Origin: Acidobacteriota bacterium | Lineage (GTDB): Bacteria; Acidobacteriota; UBA890; WLXD01 | NCBI GenBank assembly: GCA_012103255.1 | Contig: WLXD01000002.1 | Location: 496,001 to 560,000, forward strand | Direction of reading: 5' to 3' | Length of the DNA: 64,000 nt | In this document: positions 44,261 through 60,642 of the stretch, one piece after another | Position numbering within the stretch: the first letter of the stretch is position 1 | Layout of the letters: each line of letters begins with the position of its first letter | Translations under genes and position numbers: made by a program | The notes under the pieces: generated by a model | The model's database searches: none | Told to the model about the DNA's origin: nothing | Seen by the model: only the letters and a program-made list of their open reading frames with translations

Positions 44261-46693
44261 ATGCACCCTGATCCCGCCGCCTTCGAGAAACTCGGCGCCT
44301 TCTACCTCGGCCGCCAGTACGACCTTCAGGCGGATCGCCTGCTGGACGACCTCCTTCTGTACGACAGCAAGGACCTGACGACCCACGCCATGTGTGTCGG
44401 CATGACCGGCAGCGGCAAGACCGGGCTGTGCGTGTCCTTGCTGGAGGAGGCGGCCCTCGACGGCGTGCCTGCTCTGGTGATCGACCCGAAGGGCGATCTC
44501 ACGAATCTGCTGCTCACCTTTCCTCAGCTACGTGCCAACGACTTCCAGCCCTGGGTTGATCCGTCGGAGGCTCAGCGGCGTGGACAGACCGTCAAGGAAT
44601 TTGCGGGGGCTCAGGCCAAGCTCTGGCGCGAGGGGCTGGCGGACTGGGGTCAGACAGGCGACCGCATCGCACGGCTCCGGGAGGCTGCCGACTTCAATAT
44701 CTACACGCCAGGCTCCGAGGCTGGCCGACCGCTGTCCATTCTGTCCTCGTTCGGCGCGCCGCCCGAAGCCGTGCGCAACGACCTGGACGCTTTCCGCGAA
44801 CAGGTTTCGAGCGCCGCGACTGGGCTTCTCGCCCTCCTCGGGCTCGAAGCAGACCCGCTCCGTTCCCGTGAGCACATCCTCGTGTCGACGCTCATCGAAA
44901 CACTCTGGCGAGCGGGTACCGATGTGGATCTCGGGCGCCTGATCCAACTCATTCAATCGCCGCCGATTGATCGGATTGGGGCTCTCGATCTGGAATCGTT
45001 CTATCCCGCCGACGACCGCTTCGAGCTGGCGTTGCGGCTCAACAACCTGCTGGCGGCGCCAGGCTTTGCAAGCTGGATGACGGGTGAGCCATTCGACATC
45101 CAACACCTGCTCTATTCACCCGACGGCAAGCCTCGGGTCTCGGTGTTGTACATCGCCCACCTTCCGGAATCAGAGCGCATGTTCGTGGTGACGCAGGCGC
45201 TCAATCGCATGCTCGCGTGGATGCGATCGCGGTCGGGAACCTCGAGTCTGCGCGCGCTGCTCTATATGGACGAGATTTTCGGGTACATGCCGCCGGTCGC
45301 TGAGCCACCGTCGAAACGACCGTTGCTCACGCTGCTGAAACAGGCTCGCGCCTTCGGCATTGGCACCGTGCTGGCGACGCAGAATCCTGTCGATCTCGAC
45401 TACAAGGGCCTGTCCAACATGGGGACGTGGTTCCTCGGACGCCTCCAAACCGAACGCGACAAGCGCCGCGTGCTCGACGGCCTCGAGGGCGTCGCGGCCA
45501 CGGCGAGTGGGAGTTTCGATCGCGGCGCGATGGAGGAGACTCTGGCGGGTCTCGGCAAGCGGCGATTTCTGATGCACAACGTCCACGAATCGGCACCGGT
45601 CGTCTTCCATACGCGGTGGGCTATGTCATACCTCCGTGGGCCGCTCACGCGCAATCAGATCAAGGGGCTGCAACCGCAGGCCGCGGCTACAGCAGCGCCG
45701 GCGGGCCCATCGCCATCCACGCCGCCGCCGGCGCCTGTCGCGGCGCCCGCCCCGCCCAAGGCCGCGAAGCCGGTGCTGGAACCCGGCATCAAGCAAGTCT
45801 TCGTCCCGGCACGGCTGCCTGCGACCGGTGCAAACGTCACGAACGTGCCGCACCTGATCTCGGTGGCCGAGGTTCACTTCGTAGACACGCGGAAAGGTCT
45901 GCAGGCGTCAGAGGAAATCACTGCGCTGGTCGAACTCGAGCCGGACGTCGAACGTCCCGAATGGGACTCTGCACGACTCCTGGATCTCGGAGCGCGTGAC
46001 CTGCGGAAACGAGGAACGGCCGGTGCTGCCTTTGGCGAATTGCCCGCAGCGGCAGCGCGGCCGCGCACGTACGCCAGCTGGCAGAAGCAATTCCGCGACT
46101 GGGCCTATCGGACCCGTCGGTACGATCTGCACCACTGCGCCGAGCTCGAAGCCTATTCCGAACCCGGCGAAGGCGGCGCAGAGTTCAGGATTCGGCTCTC
46201 AGAGAAGGCGCGCGAGGCCCGCGACCTCGCGGTCTCCAAGCTCCGTACGAAATACGACAAGCGATTCGCCACCCTCCGCGAGCGTATTCGCAAGGCAGAA
46301 CAGACCGTGGACCGGGAAAAGGAGCAAGCATCGGGTGCGGCCATGCAGACGGCCATCAACCTCGGCTCCACGCTGCTGTCGGCCGTCCTCGGCCGGAGTG
46401 CACTGGGTCGCGCTTCGTCGACCGCGCGCGGCGCCGGCTACGCCATGCGGCAGCGTCAGGACGTCGGCCGCGCGCGAGAGAACCTGTCGCGCTACGAGGC
46501 TGATCTGGCCGATCTCGAAACGGAGTTCGACGACGCCGTGGCCGATGTCCGTGACCAGTACGATCCATCGCGGCTCGAACTCACCACCTTCGAGTTGAAG
46601 CCTCGGCGGACCGACATCGATGTCCGCGCGTTCGCGCTGGCATGGATCCCCTGCGAGGAAAGCGAGGGCGGACGGCTGACGCCGCTGGTCTAG
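44261..46693 (+). CDS. HerA-like / DUF87 ATPase with C-terminal coiled-coil
   Basis: Walker A CVGMTGSGKTGLCVSLLEEAALDGVPALVIDPKGDL; LLYMDEIFGYMP, IGTVLATQNPVDLDYKGLSNMGTWFLGRLQTERDKRRVLDGL; C-terminal coiled-coil. Confidence 0.85.
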   Translation: MHPDPAAFEKLGAFYLGRQYDLQADRLLDDLLLYDSKDLTTHAMCVGMTGSGKTGLCVSLLEEAALDGVPALVIDPKGDLTNLLLTFPQLRANDFQPWVDPSEAQRRGQTVKEFAGAQAKLWREGLADWGQTGDRIARLREAADFNIYTPGSEAGRPLSILSSFGAPPEAVRNDLDAFREQVSSAATGLLALLGLEADPLRSREHILVSTLIETLWRAGTDVDLGRLIQLIQSPPIDRIGALDLESFYPADDRFELALRLNNLLAAPGFASWMTGEPFDIQHLLYSPDGKPRVSVLYIAHLPESERMFVVTQALNRMLAWMRSRSGTSSLRALLYMDEIFGYMPPVAEPPSKRPLLTLLKQARAFGIGTVLATQNPVDLDYKGLSNMGTWFLGRLQTERDKRRVLDGLEGVAATASGSFDRGAMEETLAGLGKRRFLMHNVHESAPVVFHTRWAMSYLRGPLTRNQIKGLQPQAAATAAPAGPSPSTPPPAPVAAPAPPKAAKPVLEPGIKQVFVPARLPATGANVTNVPHLISVAEVHFVDTRKGLQASEEITALVELEPDVERPEWDSARLLDLGARDLRKRGTAGAAFGELPAAAARPRTYASWQKQFRDWAYRTRRYDLHHCAELEAYSEPGEGGAEFRIRLSEKAREARDLAVSKLRTKYDKRFATLRERIRKAEQTVDREKEQASGAAMQTAINLGSTLLSAVLGRSALGRASSTARGAGYAMRQRQDVGRARENLSRYEADLADLETEFDDAVADVRDQYDPSRLELTTFELKPRRTDIDVRAFALAWIPCEESEGGRLTPLV

Positions 46694-48183
46694 TCGCTGC
46701 CGTCCACGGGACGCCAGGTCTTGTCCATCATCGGGTGGAGCTTGAGGCTGGTGGAGTCCACCACAGCCCCATCGCGCATCAATTCCACGAGAACCTCATC
46801 GCCGGCACGCCCGGCCACGGTCACCTCTGCGGGCGCGGGGCCAGCGTAGCGACCGTCGACCCGCAGCCAGCCCGCGCGCTCAACCTGCACGGAAAAATCC
46901 CACTGCGGGACGACGCGCTCACCCCACTCCTGCTCATCGAGCGTCGATTGCTCAGCATTGCCGCGCCATTCGGCGAGATAGGCCTCGCGCATCATGTGGG
47001 CAGGCACACGCTCCGGTGAGCGTCCACGCAGATAGCTAAGAAACCGTCCAATCCTGTCCCGCATACGCGGCGACGTCGGTGCGGCGAGAGCCTCGGCCGA
47101 GCTCATCGGGTCGGGCATGGTCACCGGGCGGGGCTCGGGCGTATCGGTGGAGACGTCGCTGACTGGGAGCCGCAGGGGCTCGGGCTCGGGCTCGGGCTCG
47201 ACAGGATCCGGATCGGGCACCGACGTCAACGCGGGGCGCGGAGCGTCGGCCTCCTCGAGCGGCGGTTGAGGCTTGATCTCGAAGACCTGGTGTCCAGGCC
47301 GGAACCACTGCAACACAGGCTCAGCGGAAGCTGGAGGCACATTGAGTTCATCGTTGGCGACCACGCGGAGCGCAGCTACAAGCTGCGCACAGTTCGAGTA
47401 GCGATCGTCGGGTTCGGTCGCAAGCGCTCTGGCGAACACCACGTCCCACCCCTCGGGCAGGCCTGGCTCTTGGGAACTGAGCGTGGCGGGCTCGCCGTAG
47501 ACGGTCGCGTAGGCGTACTCGGTCGCGGTCGTGGCGGTGTGCGGCCAGGCGCCGGTCAGAATCCGATACCCCATGGCAGCGAGCGAGTACTGGTTCGACG
47601 CCGCGCGCTGTCGCAGCCCCAGGACCACCTCGGGTGCTACGCACGCCATTTCTTCGATCGAGAACGACGAGGCCATCACTGCCTCGGCGGATCGCCCAAG
47701 CAGCAGCGTGTCCGCGAAGCGAATCTCTCCGTCCTCGGTTACCAGGACGGTTTCGGGGCGGAGCGCTCGATGCACCAGATCGTTGGCGTGCAGGGTATCC
47801 AGCGCCACCGCGATCTCCGTTAGTAGCTCCATCGCGAAGTCCGGAGGCAAGGCCTGCCGAGCGATCAACTCGGAGAGCGCGCACGCCGGAAGCTCCTCGC
47901 TTACTACCCAGGCATGATCGCCCGCGCGGCCGCTACGGCAGATCGGCACGATGTGCGGCGAACTCGCCCGATGTCGTCGCACATCCTCTTCGAACTCGGA
48001 GAACCAGCGATCGAGCTGTTCTGTAGTGGGCGCCCCCGTAGGCGAATACATGCGGGCGCGCAGCGGTCTGCTTTCGCTGGGCGCGCGTACCGAGCACACC
48101 CCTCCGTGAGCGTTCACACGGGGCTCGTCGAATACGCGGAAGCCACGCAGTGCGTCCCAATCGGGATCTAGATGGTTACTCAT
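46690..48183 (-). CDS. Predicted pseudokinase (Ser/Thr kinase fold) with possible PEGA-like C-terminal domain
   Basis: Kinase-like fold with HRALRPETVLV in place of HRDLKPEN, RFADTLLLG in place of DFG, and an APE motif (VAPEVVLGLRQRAASNQYSLAAMGYRILTG); C-terminal GWLRVDGRYAGPAPAEVTVAGRAGDEVLVELMRDG. Confidence 0.8.
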   Translation of the reverse strand: MSNHLDPDWDALRGFRVFDEPRVNAHGGVCSVRAPSESRPLRARMYSPTGAPTTEQLDRWFSEFEEDVRRHRASSPHIVPICRSGRAGDHAWVVSEELPACALSELIARQALPPDFAMELLTEIAVALDTLHANDLVHRALRPETVLVTEDGEIRFADTLLLGRSAEAVMASSFSIEEMACVAPEVVLGLRQRAASNQYSLAAMGYRILTGAWPHTATTATEYAYATVYGEPATLSSQEPGLPEGWDVVFARALATEPDDRYSNCAQLVAALRVVANDELNVPPASAEPVLQWFRPGHQVFEIKPQPPLEEADAPRPALTSVPDPDPVEPEPEPEPLRLPVSDVSTDTPEPRPVTMPDPMSSAEALAAPTSPRMRDRIGRFLSYLRGRSPERVPAHMMREAYLAEWRGNAEQSTLDEQEWGERVVPQWDFSVQVERAGWLRVDGRYAGPAPAEVTVAGRAGDEVLVELMRDGAVVDSTSLKLHPMMDKTWRPVDGSD

Positions 48184-48358
48184 AGGTCTCTACCTGGCAC
48201 AGAGGGTGACAACTCCCGGGAGAAGTGACAAGGGTTGTGCCCGGATGTCCGCTCCAGTCCACGTCCAGGAGCGGCAACCAGGTGACAACTCGGCCCGCGC
48301 CCGCATGCGGCGGCGATCCGATACAATCGCCCGGTTCCCAAGACGCCACGAGAGACGC

Positions 48359-49093
48359 ATGACCCTCGCCGAAATCACCGCAATCGACGTCGGCTACCAA
48401 ACCGCCGTCGGACGAGTCCGCGATCACAACGAGGACTCGCTGAAGGTAGTGCGCGACCACTCCCTGTTTGCTGTCGCGGACGGCATGGGCGGCCATCTGG
48501 CGGGCGAGCGCGCCAGCGCTCTGGCAGTGGAAGTTCTGCAGGAGCAGGTCACCGCAATCGAAACGGCGGTGGACGGCGAGACGATGCACACCGCGCTGAC
48601 CGAGGCCAACGCGGCCATTTTTCGTGAGTCAGTGGAGAAGCCCGAGCGCCGCGGTATGGGCACCACGATGACTGCTCTTTATCTCGGGCCCACTGCCTAC
48701 TGGATCGGACACGTAGGGGACTCGCGCGCGTGGCGAATTCGAAACAACGTGGGCGAACAGATCACGGAAGACCACTCCGTTGTATGGGAACAGATGCGCG
48801 CTGGACTGATAACGGCGGAGCAGGCTGAGCGGCACCCGATGCGCAACGTGCTCACACGGAGCGTCGGGAACCTCCCGGAAGTGGAGGTCGACGTGTTGAC
48901 TGGTGGAATCCAGCGTGGAGATATCTGGGTGCTCGGGACCGACGGCATGACTCAGGTATTCGACCAGAATCGAATCGCCGAGGTCGTTGCCGCTTCGAGT
49001 AACGCCCAACAGGCCGCCGAGCAGATGGTCGACATCGCCGTGGCCGAAGACGGCAGCGACAACGTTAGTGTCGTCGTCGTTCACTGCGGCTGA
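48359..49093 (+). CDS. PP2C-family protein phosphatase
   Basis: VGRVRDHNEDSLKV, LFAVADGMGGHLAGERASALAVEVL, GTTMTALYLGPTAYWIGHVGDSRAWRI, VLGTDGMTQVF, DGSDNVSVVVV. Confidence 0.93.
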   Translation: MTLAEITAIDVGYQTAVGRVRDHNEDSLKVVRDHSLFAVADGMGGHLAGERASALAVEVLQEQVTAIETAVDGETMHTALTEANAAIFRESVEKPERRGMGTTMTALYLGPTAYWIGHVGDSRAWRIRNNVGEQITEDHSVVWEQMRAGLITAEQAERHPMRNVLTRSVGNLPEVEVDVLTGGIQRGDIWVLGTDGMTQVFDQNRIAEVVAASSNAQQAAEQMVDIAVAEDGSDNVSVVVVHCG

Positions 49094-50996: not shown

Positions 50997-53900
50997 ATGC
51001 GCTGGCTTATCGACTTTTCGGTGCGTCGCCCCGTGGCGATCGCCATGACGTACTGCGCGCTCGCGCTCCTTGCGTGGGCGTCATGGACGAACCTGCCCGT
51101 CGACGTGGTTCCGGAAGGGGAGTTCCCCGAACTCATCGTGAACACGTCCTGGGCGGGGGCGTCGCCGGAATCGATCCAGAGTCTCATCACGAGCCCCGTC
51201 GAGACGGTGGCGGTCACAATTCCCGGTGTCCACAAGGTTCTGTCGCAATCACGGCGCGGTGGCTCGGCGGTAACCGTTCAGTTCCTGGAAGACGCTGACC
51301 TGGACCTTGCACGCTTCGAACTCGCCGATCGGCTGAGTCTTCTCCAGGACGACCTTCCTCCCGCAGTTCAGGCGCCGCAGATCAGCACGATTCTGCCTTC
51401 GCAGTTTCAGGAACTCGCCGGCGGCGAGTTCTTCAGCTTCACGCTCAGAGCCCCTCGGTCGATCAACGAACTCCGCGTGGTCGCGAAAGAGGAGGTCCGC
51501 GATGCGCTGATCTCGGTGGCCGGCGTCGCGGACGTGAACGTGACCGGTGGCCAGGATCCTCACCTGCGTGTCACGTTGGACCCAGAGGCGCTGGAACTCT
51601 ACGGACTGACCGCCTGGCAGGTCGCCGGTGCGGTGCGCGAAGTGGAAGGCGAGTGGCCGGTGGGCCAGATCGACGTGGGCGGCACTGCCTTCACGTTGCG
51701 GATCGATCAGAAGCTCGAGAATCTTGATCCGCTCCGTCGACTTCCGTTGCAGCTGTACGGTGATCGCCTGGTGCTGCTCGACGACGTGGCCGACGTTCAG
51801 TTCGGATATGCAGAGGTGGAACAATTCAGCCGGGTGGACGGTGAACCGCTCATTTCCGTGCGGGTCGGGCGCAAACCCGGGACCGATGTGCTCGGCGTGG
51901 CCCGCGCTGTGCGCGCCGAACTCGCTGCGCTTCAGACCACCCTGCCGGCGGACATCACGTTCGAGGTCGTTACCGACGAGGCTGCCGACCTGGAGCAGGA
52001 GCTCGATCTGGTATCCCGGCGACTCATGGTCGTGCTCATTCTCGTTGCCGCCCTCCTCATCATCCTGCTCCGTGACCTCAGAAGCGCGCCGCTGCTGTTC
52101 ACATCGATCGGCGCGGCACTGGCGATCACCATCACCGCGCTCTATCACCTCGAAATTCCGGTAAATGTGCTCACGCTCACCGGCCTTGCGCTGGCGTTCG
52201 GCATGCTCGTCGACAATGCCGTGGTGGTGCTCGAGAACATCATGCGGCACCGGGAAAACGGCGAGGACTCCCAGACGGCCGCCCGACGTGGCACTTCAGA
52301 GGTGATCGTTCCGGTGCTCGCGGCGACGTTGACCACCGTCGGCGTCTTCTTCCCGTTTGTCTATTTCCAGGGCCGCATGCGCGACTACTTCACGCCGATG
52401 GCTCTGGCGATCACGTTCGCTCTCGGCGCGTCGCTGATCGTGGCCCTGACACTCACGCCCGCTGCCGCGGGGCGCGGATGGGTGGCCAAACGTGTTCGCG
52501 CCGGCTCCACTCGCCTCCCCTGGTTCCGATCCGGCCTCGGGCTCGGCCTTCGGCACCCGTACATCGTCGTACTGCTCGCGGTTGGTGCTCTCTACGGCAG
52601 CTATCACCTGTTCAACGAGAACGTCGCGCGTGGCAGCTTCTTCGGCTTCTGGGGCAATCGTGAACAGATCACGGTGAACGTGACATTGCAATCAGGCGCC
52701 GAGGCCACACGCACGGAACAGGCTATGCGGCCGTTCGAGGAGTACGTCCTCGGGCTACCAGACATCGAACGGGTCGAGCTCATCGTCAACAACAACCGGG
52801 GCACGATGCAGGTCAAGTTCCCTGCGGAGATGGAGGTGACCCAGTATCCGCTGGTGGTCAAGGACGAGATCATCACGATCGCGTCGCGCTACGCCGGCCT
52901 AAGGGTCTCGGTGTTCGGCTTCGACCAGAACGGCTATTCGTCGGGATTCAGCGGATCGAGCTGGATGAGCAGCCGCATCAAGCTATACGGCTACAACTAC
53001 GAGCAACTCGGCCTGATCGGTGAGGAGGTTGCCCGCATCGCCCGCCGGAGCGCCCGCGTCCGGGATTCTCAAGTGACGGCCGGCGGTTTCGGCTTCTGGC
53101 GCGACGAAGGCGGCGAGCTTGTGATGCGGGTACGCCGCGACATGCTCGCGCAGCACGGCCTCACGGTTACTGATCTACGCGCACAACTCGAGAGTTTGCT
53201 GTCCGGCAGAACGACGGCGGATCGACTCCGGGTCGGTGCGGACGAGTGGGATACTGCGATCAAGGTCGCCGGCGTGGAGCGTCGGGCCCTCAATGATGTG
53301 CTGCGAGCACCATTGCGCGGGGACAACAGTGGAACGCGGATCGGCGATTTCGTGACGGTGGGGATCCAGTCAGTCCCCGGCGTGATTACCCGCGAGGATC
53401 AGCGCTACGACCGCTATGTCCAGTGGGACTACCGAGGTTCGGGTCGAGCGGCGGAGGCCTATCGCAAGGCCATCTTCGAATCGCTCGAACTACCACCCGG
53501 CTACTCCGCTTCGCTCGAAGACGATCGCGCCTTCACCGATGAGGAGCGCGCCCAGACCCAGCAGGTTGCGACCTTGGCGCTGATCATCATCTTCATGGTG
53601 CTCGCGTCCTTGTATGAGTCTCTCTGGCAGCCCTTCATCGTCCTCCTCTCCGTGCCCGCCGCGATGATCGGCGTTTTCCTGATCTACTACCTAACGGAGG
53701 AACCGTTCGATGCGGCTGCCTCCATCGGGGTCGTGCTACTTGGAGGTATCGTCGTGAACAACGCGATTCTCCTCGTCGACCACATCAACCTTCGCCGGAA
53801 GGAGATGCCACTCGTCGAGGCGATCGTCGCCGGCACGGCCGAGCGCGTCCGACCCATCCTCATCACGTCGATCACGACCATCGGCGGCATGCTGCCGCTC

Positions 53901-54104
53901 GTTCTGATCGAGGCCGAGGTCGAGATGCGCAGCAACGACATCTGGGGAACGCTGGCGCTGTCGACCATTGGTGGACTCACTGCGTCTACTCTTCTGACAC
54001 TCACCCTCACTCCGGTTCTCTTTCTACTGGCTGAACGATGGCGTGCCCGCGCGCAGAACTTCGGCCGCCGCGTCGTAGGCATCTGGCGTTCGCTGCCAGC
54101 GTGA
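50997..54104 (+). CDS. RND-family efflux permease subunit 1
   Basis: ~1035 aa, N-terminal SVRRPVAIAMTYCALALLAW, LTLTGLALAFGMLVDNAVVVLENIMRHRENG, GGIVVNNAILLVDHINLRRKEM. Confidence 0.93.
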   Translation: MRWLIDFSVRRPVAIAMTYCALALLAWASWTNLPVDVVPEGEFPELIVNTSWAGASPESIQSLITSPVETVAVTIPGVHKVLSQSRRGGSAVTVQFLEDADLDLARFELADRLSLLQDDLPPAVQAPQISTILPSQFQELAGGEFFSFTLRAPRSINELRVVAKEEVRDALISVAGVADVNVTGGQDPHLRVTLDPEALELYGLTAWQVAGAVREVEGEWPVGQIDVGGTAFTLRIDQKLENLDPLRRLPLQLYGDRLVLLDDVADVQFGYAEVEQFSRVDGEPLISVRVGRKPGTDVLGVARAVRAELAALQTTLPADITFEVVTDEAADLEQELDLVSRRLMVVLILVAALLIILLRDLRSAPLLFTSIGAALAITITALYHLEIPVNVLTLTGLALAFGMLVDNAVVVLENIMRHRENGEDSQTAARRGTSEVIVPVLAATLTTVGVFFPFVYFQGRMRDYFTPMALAITFALGASLIVALTLTPAAAGRGWVAKRVRAGSTRLPWFRSGLGLGLRHPYIVVLLAVGALYGSYHLFNENVARGSFFGFWGNREQITVNVTLQSGAEATRTEQAMRPFEEYVLGLPDIERVELIVNNNRGTMQVKFPAEMEVTQYPLVVKDEIITIASRYAGLRVSVFGFDQNGYSSGFSGSSWMSSRIKLYGYNYEQLGLIGEEVARIARRSARVRDSQVTAGGFGFWRDEGGELVMRVRRDMLAQHGLTVTDLRAQLESLLSGRTTADRLRVGADEWDTAIKVAGVERRALNDVLRAPLRGDNSGTRIGDFVTVGIQSVPGVITREDQRYDRYVQWDYRGSGRAAEAYRKAIFESLELPPGYSASLEDDRAFTDEERAQTQQVATLALIIIFMVLASLYESLWQPFIVLLSVPAAMIGVFLIYYLTEEPFDAAASIGVVLLGGIVVNNAILLVDHINLRRKEMPLVEAIVAGTAERVRPILITSITTIGGMLPLVLIEAEVEMRSNDIWGTLALSTIGGLTASTLLTLTLTPVLFLLAERWRARAQNFGRRVVGIWRSLPA

Positions 54105-54134
54105 CCCGGTTGCCCCACTGACAGGAAGCGAGAC

Positions 54135-55400
54135 GTGCAAGACAACGACACCGAACCACGCCCCAAGCCGTTGCGAATCATCATCAGCACCGTGCTGTTG
54201 ATCGCACTGGCGGGCGCGGCCTATGTGGCACTGAATGGCATGCCCGTCATCGCGGCCGCAGACGATCCCGCAGAGACCGCGTCTGAAGAGCCGAGCGACG
54301 AAGGGCAGAGCATTCAAGCGCCCGCGTCAGTCCCGGTGCCGGTCGTAACTGCAGATGCCGACCGCCGCGAGATGATCATGAAGATCACGGCAACCGGGAA
54401 CGCCGAGGCCACCCGTCAACTCGAACTACAGACGGCGTCGACGGGCGACGTACTGAGTGTCGACGTGGTCGAGGGGCAGATTGTCGAAGCCGGTGATCCC
54501 ATCGCCCGACTCGACGACACCGAACTCCGGCTCGAGGTTGGCAAAGCTCGCGAAGCACTGGTGAAGGCGATCGCCAACTTCAGCGGCGACCTGACCTACC
54601 TCAAGGACTACGGTGGCGACGACCCCTCGGAGATGGAAGCCCGAGCATTCTCGTCGCTGCTGGAAGCAGACGACTTCGCGGCGTTTATCAACGATCCGGA
54701 GTTCGACGAACTCTTCAACACGATTACCCGCGAAGAGGTGATCGCCGCTCGTGACAACCTGGTCACGCAGCGCGCGAACTTCGAACAGGCCGAACTCAAC
54801 CTCGCGCGCGCTCAGATCCTCGCACCGTTCGGCGGCCAGATCGCCGAACTCGAGGTCGTTGTCGGACAACGTCTTAGCCCCGACACCAAGGTTGCCACTC
54901 TCGTCGACGCGAGCCCGATCCGGGTTCGTGTGGAGGTCCTCGAATCCGACGCCGGGCTCGCTCGCGTCGGCCGCCGCGCGGAGGTTCACTTCGCCGCGTA
55001 TCCCGGCGAAACTTTCGTCGGCGTCGTTGAAGCGATCAGCCCGCTTGTTGACCCGGAGGAGCGCACCCTCGAGGTGCTGGTCTCCCTCCCCAACGACGGT
55101 CTCCGGCTGAAGCCCGGCATGTTCGCCCAGATCACGCTCGACACCCAGATCTTCGACGATCGACTCCTCGTGCCGGCAGACGCGGTGTTGTTGCGCAGCG
55201 ACCGGCCGATGGTGTTCCGCGTGATCAACGGCCGCAGTGACTGGGTTTACATCACGAAGGGACTCGAAAACACGGAGTGGGTCGAAGTCATCGAGGGCAT
55301 CGAGCCCGGCGACGAAGTGATCGTCTCGGGCCACTACAGCCTCGCTCACGACGCCGCGATTCGCGTGGTGGACCCGGAGGCTGACGCTGAGTCCGAATAG
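54135..55400 (+). CDS. RND periplasmic adaptor (membrane fusion) subunit
   Basis: N-terminal TM; ATRQLELQTASTGDVLSVDVVEGQIVEAGDPIARLDDTEL, FEQAELNLARAQILAPFGGQIAELEVVVGQRLSPDTKVATLVD. Confidence 0.92.
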   Translation: MQDNDTEPRPKPLRIIISTVLLIALAGAAYVALNGMPVIAAADDPAETASEEPSDEGQSIQAPASVPVPVVTADADRREMIMKITATGNAEATRQLELQTASTGDVLSVDVVEGQIVEAGDPIARLDDTELRLEVGKAREALVKAIANFSGDLTYLKDYGGDDPSEMEARAFSSLLEADDFAAFINDPEFDELFNTITREEVIAARDNLVTQRANFEQAELNLARAQILAPFGGQIAELEVVVGQRLSPDTKVATLVDASPIRVRVEVLESDAGLARVGRRAEVHFAAYPGETFVGVVEAISPLVDPEERTLEVLVSLPNDGLRLKPGMFAQITLDTQIFDDRLLVPADAVLLRSDRPMVFRVINGRSDWVYITKGLENTEWVEVIEGIEPGDEVIVSGHYSLAHDAAIRVVDPEADAESE

Positions 55401-55416
55401 CTCACGTCGCCCGTCG

Positions 55417-58400
55417 GTGAGTCTGCCGGGCGTCGCCATCAAGCGACCTGTGACCGTCCTGATGGGCTGCGTCGCCGTGCTCCTGCTGGGCTCTGTCTCG
55501 TTCGGCGGGCTCAGCGTGGACCTGCTGCCCGATATCGGCACCCCGCGGGTCACTCTGCTAACCACCGCTGACACCAGCGCGCTGGCACCGCAGGAGATCG
55601 AGCGTCTCGTCACGGCTCCGCTGGAGAACCAGGTGCAGACGGTGTCGGGAGTGCGCCGCGTGACCTCGACGTCGCGCGAGGGCATGTCGGTGATCACCGT
55701 GGAGTTCCCGTGGGGCACGAACCTCGACATCGCGACGCTACACATCCGCGAAGCCGTCGATAAGGTGCGACAACAGCTGCCCGAGGATGTAGAACGACCC
55801 GCCGTGCTGCGCTGGGACCCGGGCAGTGAGCCGGTGATGGGAATGGCCGTCGCCGGTACTGGGAGCCTTGGTGCGCTCCGCGAGATGGTCGAGGCCATTA
55901 TCGTGCCCCGGATGGAACAGGTGCAGGGCATCGCTGGCGCGCAGGTAACTGGTGGCGCTCAGCGCGAGATTCAGGTGAATCTCGAACCCGACAAGCTCGC
56001 GCTCTACGGGCTAACCGTGGCGAACATCGAGGACGCGCTCGAGCGGTCCAACGTAAGCCTCCAGTCCGGGAACGTATTGCAGGGAGCGCTCCGCTATCAG
56101 GTTCGAGCCCTGGGTGAGTTCGCATCCGTTGACGAGATCCGTGACGTGATCATCTCGCGCAGTAGCGGGCGCACGATGGTGCGACTTGGCGACATCGGCG
56201 ACGTCGTCGAGGGCGTAAAACCGCGCACTGCCGGCGCACTCCTGGACGGTCAGCAGGCTATCGGCGTGTTGCTCTACCGGGAGGCTGGGAGCAATACGAT
56301 CGAAGCCGTAGCGGCGGCGGAAGAGGCCCTCGCTGAACTGCGCGCGCAGTATCCCGAGTTGACGCTCGAGATCGCATTCGAGAACGCGTCTTTCATCTCC
56401 GAGGCGATCCAGTCGGTTGTGCAGAACATCGGGCTCGGCAGCATCTTTGCCTTCGGGATCCTGTTTCTGTTCCTGCGCGACCCACGCAACCCCGTCCTCA
56501 TCGGCATAGCGATCCCGATCTCGATCATCGCAACCTTCGTTCTCTGCTACTTCGCCGACATCAGTCTCAACATCATGACCCTCGGTGGTCTCGCACTCGG
56601 TGCCGGACTCCTGGTCGACAACTCGATCGTTGTGCTCGAGAACATCTTCCGACACCGCCAACTCGGCGAGACAGCCGCTGACGCGGCTCGGCATGGCACG
56701 GAGCAGGTGGGCCTCGCGGTAGCGGCTGCGACCACAACAACGATCGCCGTCTTCTTGCCAATCGCATACGTCCACGGCGTGGCCGGCGAGCTATTTGCCG
56801 CACAGGCATGGACCGTCACTTTCGCGCTGATCGCATCGCTGATCGTGTCGCTCACGGTTCTTCCGATGCTCGCCTCGCGCTTCCTGCGGCTTGGCGAATC
56901 GACTTCGACAGGCTCCGGCCCCGACACGGGCGGAGACGATTTCGACCCGCTGCTCGCGGGGCGTGTGCGCCGGCTCCGACGCTGGCTCGGTGCGTTGCCC
57001 GGGCGCGGCGTGGACGGGCTGCTGACCATCATGCTGTTCTGGGTGCGCCTTGCCGTCAGGGCCACCGGGTGGCTGCTGTCGCCGCTGCTGGAAGCCTTCG
57101 CCGCCATCTACAACGGGTTCGCCGCCGTCTATCACCGGCTCCTGATCTTCTGCCTCGCGCACCGAGCCCTGACTCTGGTGGGGATCACCCTGCTGCTCGT
57201 CTGGGGCGCCACCGTGGCGCAACGGCTGCCGTGGGAATTGATGCCGCAGGTCAACACCGGCCGCTTCGAAGTGACGATCGACGTCGAGCCGGGCACCCCA
57301 TTCGCGCGGCTCGACCAGATCGTTCAAGAAACCGAAGCCGCCGCCCGAGCCGGTGACGGCGTCGCGCGAACCTTCGCGACACTCGGCGCGGACCCGGGAG
57401 CCATCACCTCCTCCGCCGCCGGGGCGCTTGAGCTGTCTCCGACGCGGGCTCGTCTGTCCGTGATCATGTCCGGCACGCGAACCCGGACGATGGCACCTGC
57501 CCTCGAGGCTGCAATCGAGCGTGTGCGTACCACCGCCGAGTCAATCCGCGGCGTCAGCGTGGTCATCGACCCGCAGTCCAATCCGTTGCAACGGAGTCTG
57601 GGGCTCAGCGACAGCGGCTTCCAGGTTCTTGTCCGCGGCGACGATCTCGATGTGCTGCAGGGGCTAGCCGACCAGGGCGCCAATATCCTCCAGTCGGTAG
57701 AAGGTCTCACCGATATCAACTCACGATCGACCCGGGGTAATCCGGAGATCCGGCTACGCGTGAAACGCGACGTGGCGGCGCTCTATGGGGTGACCGTGAG
57801 CGACGTGACTCGCGCCCTGCAAGCGGGGCTCCAAGGGACGATCCCGACACAGTTCGTGGAATTCGATCGGCGGATCGACATCCGCGTGGTGGCACTGAGC
57901 GAGCAGCAATCCGTGGAAGCGCTGTTGGATCAGCCGTATGAGACGCAATTGGGCCCCGTGCCGTTCCGCGAACTCGTCGACTTCGAGCGCGCCGTCGGCC
58001 CACAGGAGATCCAGCGTCGCGACCGCGTCCGTGAAGTGCCCATTACTGCCACTCTCACCGGAATCAGCCTGTCAGAGGCCGTCGCGGGCGCCGAGCTCGC
58101 CATGGCCGAACTGGATCTGCCCACGGGCTACCAGTGGCGGATCGGTGGCGAGCGCGAGGAAGTGCAGGCGTCGTTTCAGAGCCTGGCATGGGCACTCGCA
58201 CTGGCCGCAGCCCTGGTCTACATGGTGATGGCCGCACAATTCGAGTCGCTGCTCCACCCCTTCGTGATCCTCTCGACTCTGCCGCTCGGCTGGGTCGGCG
58301 TCGTCACAGGACTCTGGCTGGTGGGTCTGACGGTGAACGTTGTCGCCCTGATCGGGGCGGTAGTGCTCACCGGGATCGTTGTGAACGACGGCATCGTGAA

Positions 58401-58689
58401 AATCGACACCATCAACCGGCTGCGAGCCGAAGGGATGCCCCGACGCCAGGCGGTTCTGGAGGGCTCAGCGCTCCGCCTGCGCCCGATCCTGATGACGACC
58501 GTCACCACGATGTGCGCATTGATCCCGCTCGCGATGGGCCTCGGCGCCGGCGCGGAGCTGCAGCGTCCGCTGGCGGTTGCCGTGATTGGCGGCGAGTTCA
58601 CCGGCACGCTTCTCACCCTGATCGTGCTGCCGGTGATCTACGAGATCCTGGACTGGCGTCGCGACGCGCCGGCCGAAGTCAGAAGCTAG
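55417..58689 (+). CDS. RND-family efflux permease subunit 2
   Basis: ~1090 aa, [75 protein letters not shown]. Confidence 0.93.
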   Translation: [1090 protein letters not shown]

Positions 58690-58744
58690 GCTCCGCTGAA
58701 CGACACATGCAGTCACACGTTGGGTTTTTCTGTTGCCTTTAACT

Positions 58745-58811
58745 GACTAATAATGACTTTTAATATGTTTTAAAGATTCATAAACATTTTTAGACGCTAT
58801 TAACACGCTAT
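58745..58811 (+). promoter_or_regulatory. AT-rich promoter/operator region upstream of the RHH/HD-GYP gene
   Basis: Low-GC island with direct repeats TTTTAA (58758, 58768; 10-bp period) and ACGCTAT (58794, 58805; 11-bp period). Confidence 0.4.
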
Positions 58812-58899
58812 GTGCACTGGAATTACTTCGAACCTCGGTCTATATTCGGTTCTCTAGCGCGAAATCTTCGGACCACCTCTGACTGCGTGGGGGCGCCGC

Positions 58900-60642
58900 G
58901 TGGGCGACTACTGGAACAAGGACTCGGACACAACGTTGCCTGCCCGCCGATCGGAACTCGGCGTCGAGCGCAGCAACGACCACCCTCTCTACCCGACGGT
59001 TCATCAACCGCAGGAAACTCAGCCCGCGTCACCTGGCGCTGTGCCACTCCCCGAGTTCCTGAGCTTGACCTACACGCTGCCCTACCACCTCGTTGAGCAA
59101 ATCAACGACCTGGCGCGAGAAACGAACCGATCGCCGAGCGAACTCGTGGCGGATTCGATTCGCCTCTATCTCGAATCGCTCCGGGCGCACCGCGAACAGA
59201 GTCTTCTATATGGTGCCGGCGATGTGACCTTCCAGCAGGACGTGGTTCAGGACGTGACGCCCGAACACGATTCAGATCACGCCGAGTCGGCGCGAGAACC
59301 GTTTGTGGATCCGACGTCAGTTGCCGCCGAAGAGCAAGATTCGGCGGACGATGCCCGGCCGATGTCCTATATCGAGCGCCTTCGCGCACGCGGCAAGTCC
59401 CGAGAGTCGGAGGCGACCCAGGACGTAGCCCAAGACTCGAGTGCAGAGGAAGTCGCAGGCCCCGAGTCGCCGGAAGTCATCGTGCCTGAGATCGAAGTGC
59501 CTGAGATCGAAATTCCCGAGCCCGTCGCCAGCGCCGCTGAGCAGGCCGAAATTGTTGCCGAAGAGAGCACCGATGTGCCCGAGGCGATTGCAGACGAGCC
59601 CGCCGACGTCTCGCCCGCGGAGCCAGCAGCGGCGGCTACCTCACCCCCTGAACCGCCGGCACCCGATGTCATCGAAGCTGTAGCCGTGGCACCCGGCGTA
59701 GTCGAGTCAGAGCCGCCCGTGCCGGCCCCCGAGCCATCGCCGGACCCCGAGCAGCCACCAGTCGCGGAGTCGGAGTCCGACCCGCCTGGACCCGCAGACA
59801 TCGAGATCGAGGCGACCGCCGAGGTTGAGTCCGGCACCAAGCAAGTAAAGGTCACGCCAGCGGCCGAGACGCAGGAGTCAGCGCCCGCGGCTGAGCCAGA
59901 GGCTCAGAATGCGGCTGAAGCTGAACCCGCTGATGAGACCGCAGCCGTGCCCGACGACGGCATGTCCGCCGAGGATCGTGCACTCCAGGAAATCGCGGAT
60001 CCCGCAATCGACGTACGGCGCCGCCTCCAGGAGGTAGCCGCTGAGCCACTCGATAGCCGCAGGCTCGTTCGAGCTCTTCAGCAGATCATGCGCGAAGTCG
60101 ACCGCAAGGACTTCTCCCCTCCGGAGCACTCCATCAAGGTCGCCGACATGGCGATGGAACTCGCCAAGGCCAAAGGCTTCCGCGGCAATCGGCTCCACGC
60201 CATCTACGTTGCGGCGCTCGTGCACGACATCGGCAAGGCGTGTATTCCGGACGAGGTCATCAAGAAACCCAAGCCCTCGTCCGAGGAAATGGCGCTGATC
60301 CGCAAGTACCCGGAGTTCGGGGTCGATCTCCTCGAGCCAATTCCCGCGATGGCTCCGATACTGGGCGTGATTGCCGCCCATCAGGAGCGCTGGAACGGCT
60401 CGGGCTATCCGAACCGCCTGTCGCGCACGGACATTCCGGTGGGCGCCCAAATCATCGCGCTCTGCGATGTGTATGACGTTCTCATCACCGATCGACGTTA
60501 TCGGCCGGCGTATACGGACGAGCGGGCCCGTCAGATCATTCAGCAGAATGTCGGCACCCTCTGGAATCCCGAGATCGGACGGGCGCTTCTGACGCGAGTT
60601 CTAACGCCCGAAAAGAAGGCGGCGGTCGGGTCTCGCCGCTAA
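58900..60642 (+). CDS. Putative ribbon-helix-helix DNA-binding domain / acidic-proline linker / HD-GYP-like domain protein
   Basis: RHH-like LTYTLPYHLVEQINDLARETNRSPSELVADSIRLYLE; long Glu/Pro/Ala linker; HD domain LVHDIGKACIPDEVI and HQERWNGSGYPNRLSRTDIPVGAQIIALCDVYDVLITDRRYRPAY. Confidence 0.8.
   Translation: MGDYWNKDSDTTLPARRSELGVERSNDHPLYPTVHQPQETQPASPGAVPLPEFLSLTYTLPYHLVEQINDLARETNRSPSELVADSIRLYLESLRAHREQSLLYGAGDVTFQQDVVQDVTPEHDSDHAESAREPFVDPTSVAAEEQDSADDARPMSYIERLRARGKSRESEATQDVAQDSSAEEVAGPESPEVIVPEIEVPEIEIPEPVASAAEQAEIVAEESTDVPEAIADEPADVSPAEPAAAATSPPEPPAPDVIEAVAVAPGVVESEPPVPAPEPSPDPEQPPVAESESDPPGPADIEIEATAEVESGTKQVKVTPAAETQESAPAAEPEAQNAAEAEPADETAAVPDDGMSAEDRALQEIADPAIDVRRRLQEVAAEPLDSRRLVRALQQIMREVDRKDFSPPEHSIKVADMAMELAKAKGFRGNRLHAIYVAALVHDIGKACIPDEVIKKPKPSSEEMALIRKYPEFGVDLLEPIPAMAPILGVIAAHQERWNGSGYPNRLSRTDIPVGAQIIALCDVYDVLITDRRYRPAYTDERARQIIQQNVGTLWNPEIGRALLTRVLTPEKKAAVGSRR

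Follow-up and report, generated by a model that had tools for sequence, protein, structure and literature searches.

Can a ribbon-helix-helix (RHH) domain be placed under the control of a cyclic dinucleotide by direct fusion to an HD-GYP domain? The question is raised by a single gene in the 64,000-nucleotide stretch of acidobacterial DNA analysed here (the window), whose 580-aa product carries, in this order, an RHH domain, a long acidic and proline-rich linker and an HD-GYP domain.

The fused gene and its N-terminal fold

58900..60642, + strand: RHH-linker-HD-GYP gene, 580 aa, GTG start; ortholog with the same MGD start
59056..59175, + strand: ribbon-helix-helix domain, residues 53-92 (Pfam RHH_1, PDB profile, AF2 model, Foldseek)
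59176..59997, + strand: acidic/proline/alanine-rich linker, residues 93-366 (274 aa), from composition; predicted disordered
59482..59511, + strand: tandem pair of identical 15-bp units (VPEIE VPEIE) within the linker, from sequence comparison
60052..60594, + strand: HD-GYP domain, residues ~385-565 (HD_5 and PDB HD-GYP matches)

The sole support for the GTG start is the MGD start shared with the ortholog. The reading frame, its coordinates and the HDIGK and HQERWNGSGYP motifs reported in a preliminary description of the window proved exact on re-checking, as did the tandem repeat at 59482-59511, a minor feature. That description had also recognised an RHH pattern near the N-terminus, and the comparisons made here bear it out rather than contradict it. 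The 580-aa protein gives a fragment match to Pfam RHH_1 (E=0.0012) at 19.1 bits, just under the curated cut-off of 20.5 bits, while the ortholog, and only the ortholog, exceeds it with 22.8 bits. Against the PDB, a profile built from five sequences matched a solved RHH protein of the CopG family (E=0.0011) and the antitoxin EndoAI (E=0.007). The AF2 model of the segment has a pLDDT of 86, and the leading Foldseek matches obtained with it (StnY, CopASO, CopG, CdbA, PutA, Arc and AmrZ) are all RHH proteins; the Foldseek E-values are weak (best 0.045, none <0.001) because the model chain has only 54 residues. With its predicted strand-helix-helix arrangement and its homology to known members, the segment belongs in the ribbon-helix-helix superfamily, and we consider its RHH fold well supported by profile and model comparisons.

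A full-length AF2 model was built from a 2-row alignment and is of low confidence (pLDDT 49.6), so that it was used for the helices and for disorder only. It places the RHH strand at FLSLTYTLP and the helices at residues 62-75 and 79-97, and pLDDT falls below 50 across nearly all of residues 97-352. The linker carries a net charge of -56 over its 274 residues.

The HD-GYP domain and its active site

60223..60228, + strand: HD motif His442-Asp443 (PmGH H221, D222), kept in the alignment with PmGH
60307..60309, + strand: Tyr470, replacing the metal ligand His250 of PmGH (alignment with PmGH)
60379..60384, + strand: His494-Gln495 (PmGH H276, H277); HQ is a common variant (alignment)
60403..60411, + strand: GYP motif Gly502-Tyr503-Pro504 (alignment); in PmGH this Tyr contacts the c-di-GMP phosphate

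The C-terminal part is a member of the HD-GYP family by its HD_5/HD homology (HD_5, E=7.5e-31, residues 402-555) and by its HDxGK and HxExxxGxGYP motifs, and its solved relatives include V-cGAP3 (E=1.6e-23) and PmGH (E=1.2e-19). To compare active sites, 53 HD-GYP domains were aligned with PmGH, whose residue numbers are used below. The domain retains D183, H189, H221, D222, K225, H276, D305 and D308, while E185 is changed to Ser, H250 to Tyr and H277 to Gln. The residues that contact c-di-GMP are also kept (Y285 as Y503, R314 as R532, and K317 conservatively as Arg, R535), together with the structural I294, and these contacts mark the domain as a candidate cyclic-dinucleotide receptor. The set of seven metal ligands common to both HD-GYP groups and expected of a competent phosphodiesterase (H189, H221, D222, H250, H276, H277 and D305) is incomplete, with H250 replaced by Y470 and H277 by Q495. 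In PmGH, alanine at either H250 or H277 essentially abolishes hydrolysis and alanine at E185 reduces it (PMC4159591), and the G-site ligands are critical.

The preliminary description had suggested weakened catalysis or a sensor role for this domain on account of a Gln in place of the second His and an Asn in place of an Asp in the motif. That basis has to be given up: both changes occur in other HD-GYP domains of the phylum, and H277 to Gln is common where the site is otherwise complete, so the two residues are uninformative by themselves. The suggestion itself is supported on other grounds, since the distinctive change among the aligned sequences is the loss of H250 (to Tyr) together with that of E185 (to Ser). 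Tyrosine stands at H250 in all five RHH-HD-GYP proteins and in none of the 49 other domains compared. Two further domains, L006 and L014, have Val at this position and also lack a further conserved residue; L006 (G000:C2:342391-342927), from a GGDEF-HD-GYP protein of the genome to which the window belongs, has H276 changed to Thr as well. Loss of a metal ligand thus recurs in the aligned sequences within the wider HD-GYP clade to which L006 and L014 belong.

From these residues, the HD-GYP domain of the 580-aa protein would probably hold a nucleotide but, with its metal site incomplete, show little or no hydrolysis of it. Inactivity is nevertheless not certain: H277 to Gln alone is common in otherwise complete sites, and VCA0681 retains activity although one of its required residues is changed (PMC4212101).

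Conservation, distribution and surroundings of the fusion

An ortholog is encoded on JAJCXS010000246.1 (Acidobacteriota bacterium isolate OFTM137), from the same genus, and was the sole find in a scan of named genomes. The two proteins are 46% identical overall, a figure that divides into 74% for the RHH domain, 66% for the HD-GYP domain and 31% for the linker. Mismatch fractions at codon positions 1, 2 and 3 are 0.24, 0.10 and 0.55 for RHH and 0.26, 0.17 and 0.55 for HD-GYP, against 0.47, 0.45 and 0.70 for the linker. The high identity and the third-position-biased change of the two domains relative to the linker indicate that both domains are under protein-level selection, while the linker appears, from its divergence, to be kept for length and composition only. 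The fusion of RHH to HD-GYP is therefore real and conserved.

A profile search revealed a second RHH-HD-GYP family, whose ~300-aa members have a short linker and occur in each of the three genomes sampled from the genus:

L047:1417-2334: short RHH-HD-GYP protein
L044:1438-2334: short RHH-HD-GYP protein
L011:1495-2406 (minus strand): short RHH-HD-GYP protein

A small gene that looks by eye like a membrane methyltransferase precedes each short-family gene. Beyond the genus, the matches listed in other genomes of the phylum begin after the RHH part, and among the matches listed from 396 sampled phylum genomes the RHH part was found only in the three genomes of the genus; the fusion has thus been seen in one genus only. 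Other RHH matches in the phylum (L043, L045 and L046) were set aside as separate small CopG-type proteins that are not fused to HD-GYP. A plasmid search using the short protein as query gave 558 matching records, none of which covered 80% of it, and the matches listed start at residue 73 or later, past the RHH part.

On the HD-GYP tree the five RHH-HD-GYP domains cluster (support 80/93), with the two paralogous families on long branches, and the well-supported clade that contains them (98/94) also takes in GGDEF-HD-GYP proteins from the genome of the window (C2:342391 and C4:260274). The simplest account of this tree would be a single origin of the five proteins followed by duplication.

The surroundings of the long gene include an efflux cluster:

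50997..58689, + strand: RND-type efflux cluster (named by eye), with RND 50997-54104, membrane-fusion type 54135-55400 and RND 55417-58689

In each of the two species with the long form, this cluster lies upstream of the gene. In the sister genus (L090:1969-3727; L039:6213-9465) an acyl-CoA-ligase-like gene comes immediately after the RND gene, while genome G001 has a propeller-like gene and the fusion gene in between; because the sister genus lacks the gene there, it looks as if it had been inserted at, or lost from, this site. The contig of genome G002 ends inside the RND gene, so G002 may also have the long form. A functional tie between fusion and efflux cluster was considered and found unsupported, given this arrangement in the sister genus; a position that two close species have inherited from a common ancestor is weak evidence for such a link, and the cluster is probably not part of the system. 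Elsewhere in the window, a divergent pair at 46690-49093 consists of a Ser/Thr protein kinase-like gene (- strand) and a PPM-type phosphatase-like gene (+ strand), both named by eye.

A putative one-component switch, its alternatives and its relatives

We favour, tentatively and with somewhat less than even confidence, a reading of the 580-aa protein as a c-di-GMP-responsive regulator whose HD-GYP domain binds its ligand with poor hydrolysis or none. Five GGDEF and two EAL domains are encoded in the genome, whose GGDEF proteins would make the c-di-GMP. The C-terminal HD-GYP domain would bind c-di-GMP, or a cyclic dinucleotide related to it, in the conserved pocket with little or no hydrolysis. 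Binding would change how the HD-GYP dimer forms or packs, and the RHH dimer at the N-terminus would respond by binding or releasing DNA. The linker, acidic and predicted to be disordered, would act as a flexible tether and may, in addition, screen the RHH domain from DNA. In this scheme the binding of ligand and of DNA, the lack of turnover and the coupling of the domains are all inferred.

The step to DNA is where this reading meets its main competitor, that the RHH domain is a dimerisation or protein-binding module, which pairs chains or docks on a partner within a c-di-GMP-sensing or -degrading protein. We infer a transcription-factor role from a well-supported fold. Yet the domain carries a net negative charge (-1 to -3), and no operator was recognised: upstream alignment and inspection by eye gave no clear shared operator-like palindrome. 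The strand FLSLTYTLP offers Ser and Thr but no basic residue, and that of the short family, FVEQNIVLP (with Glu, Asn and Val), likewise lacks one; with a strand that is neutral or acidic in the two families, the domain may dimerise or dock instead. EndoAI, among the closest solved RHH relatives by sequence, belongs to a family that also binds partner proteins. Against docking stands the strand SLTYTLP, which is identical in the long proteins of two species though most of the protein has diverged; this suggests that the face does something specific, as expected of a specific binding face. Nor does a toxin-like ORF adjoin the gene, whose neighbours (named by eye) are the transport cluster and a helicase-like gene; the adjacent cognate toxin gene that would define a type II antitoxin of the CopG/MazE-like kind is thus missing. 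On balance we regard a purely dimerising or docking RHH domain as rather unlikely, if a serious contender. The intergenic stretch 58690-58899 upstream of the gene is AT-rich within a GC-rich region, and can be aligned only partly with the DNA upstream of the ortholog.

It is also conceivable that the reduced metal centre still cleaves c-di-GMP, cGAMP or pGpG, and that catalysis gates the RHH domain in the manner of the trigger phosphodiesterase PdeL, an HD-GYP version of which has been named as a possibility (PMC5052742). Such activity would fit the retention of the core equivalents of H189, H221, D222 and D305 along with K225, D183 and D308, and the wide occurrence of HQE domains with otherwise complete sites. 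Yet the ligand lost in all five members is the one whose replacement by alanine abolishes activity in PmGH, and the only other losses of H250, those to Val in L006 and L014, share the wider clade and come with loss of a further conserved residue; we consider an active enzyme unlikely. A recent, poorly constrained fusion without defined function, in effect a decaying paralog, would account for the restriction to one genus and for the absence from the matching site of the sister genus, but fits poorly with the long branches of the two paralogous families and with the strong conservation and third-position-biased substitution in both domains, and appears improbable.

If the regulator reading is correct, the family would offer a natural HD-GYP domain turned receptor through loss of H250 with the HD motif kept, a milder route than that taken by DvhD, and the short paralogs (~300 aa) would be convenient for structural and binding studies. 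In its most specific form, which is possible but more doubtful, the proposal is that of the first HD-GYP-based one-component c-di-GMP transcriptional switch, in which a degenerate HD-GYP receptor gates an RHH domain and which evolved, as long acidic-tether and short-tether paralogs, in one Acidobacteriota genus from a GGDEF-HD-GYP clade. The preliminary description knew of no standard family joining RHH to HD-GYP; in keeping with this, the open literature searched (subscription papers lay outside its scope) yielded no paper describing such a protein.

Several known systems nonetheless come close. PdeL of E. coli, an active HTH-EAL trigger phosphodiesterase and c-di-GMP sensor (PMC5052742), likewise joins an N-terminal domain of DNA-binding type to a domain of c-di-GMP phosphodiesterase type in one chain, as in the sensor and regulator proposed here, but it has a LuxR-type HTH in place of RHH and an EAL domain, of unrelated fold, in place of HD-GYP. 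CdbA of Myxococcus xanthus is a small protein that consists of an RHH domain only, and this domain itself binds c-di-GMP (PMC7156744); its structures are among the best Foldseek matches, whereas it lacks the HD-GYP domain present here. DvhD of Desulfovibrio vulgaris is a precedent for the receptor reading: its degenerate, metal-free HD-GYP domain serves as a receptor, binding c-di-GMP without cleaving it (PMC13090378). It resembles the present protein in having lost metal ligands, but it regulates adhesion, carries a PAS domain and has lost the HD motif that is kept here. PmGH and V-cGAP3 share the domain family and the nucleotide-contact residues, although our protein has Tyr, Gln and Ser where PmGH has H250, H277 and E185, and the GGDEF-HD-GYP proteins of the same genome fall in the same supported clade but bear GGDEF rather than RHH at the N-terminus. 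The RHH-HD-GYP protein is thus a new combination of known parts, of which PdeL, CdbA and DvhD each cover one.
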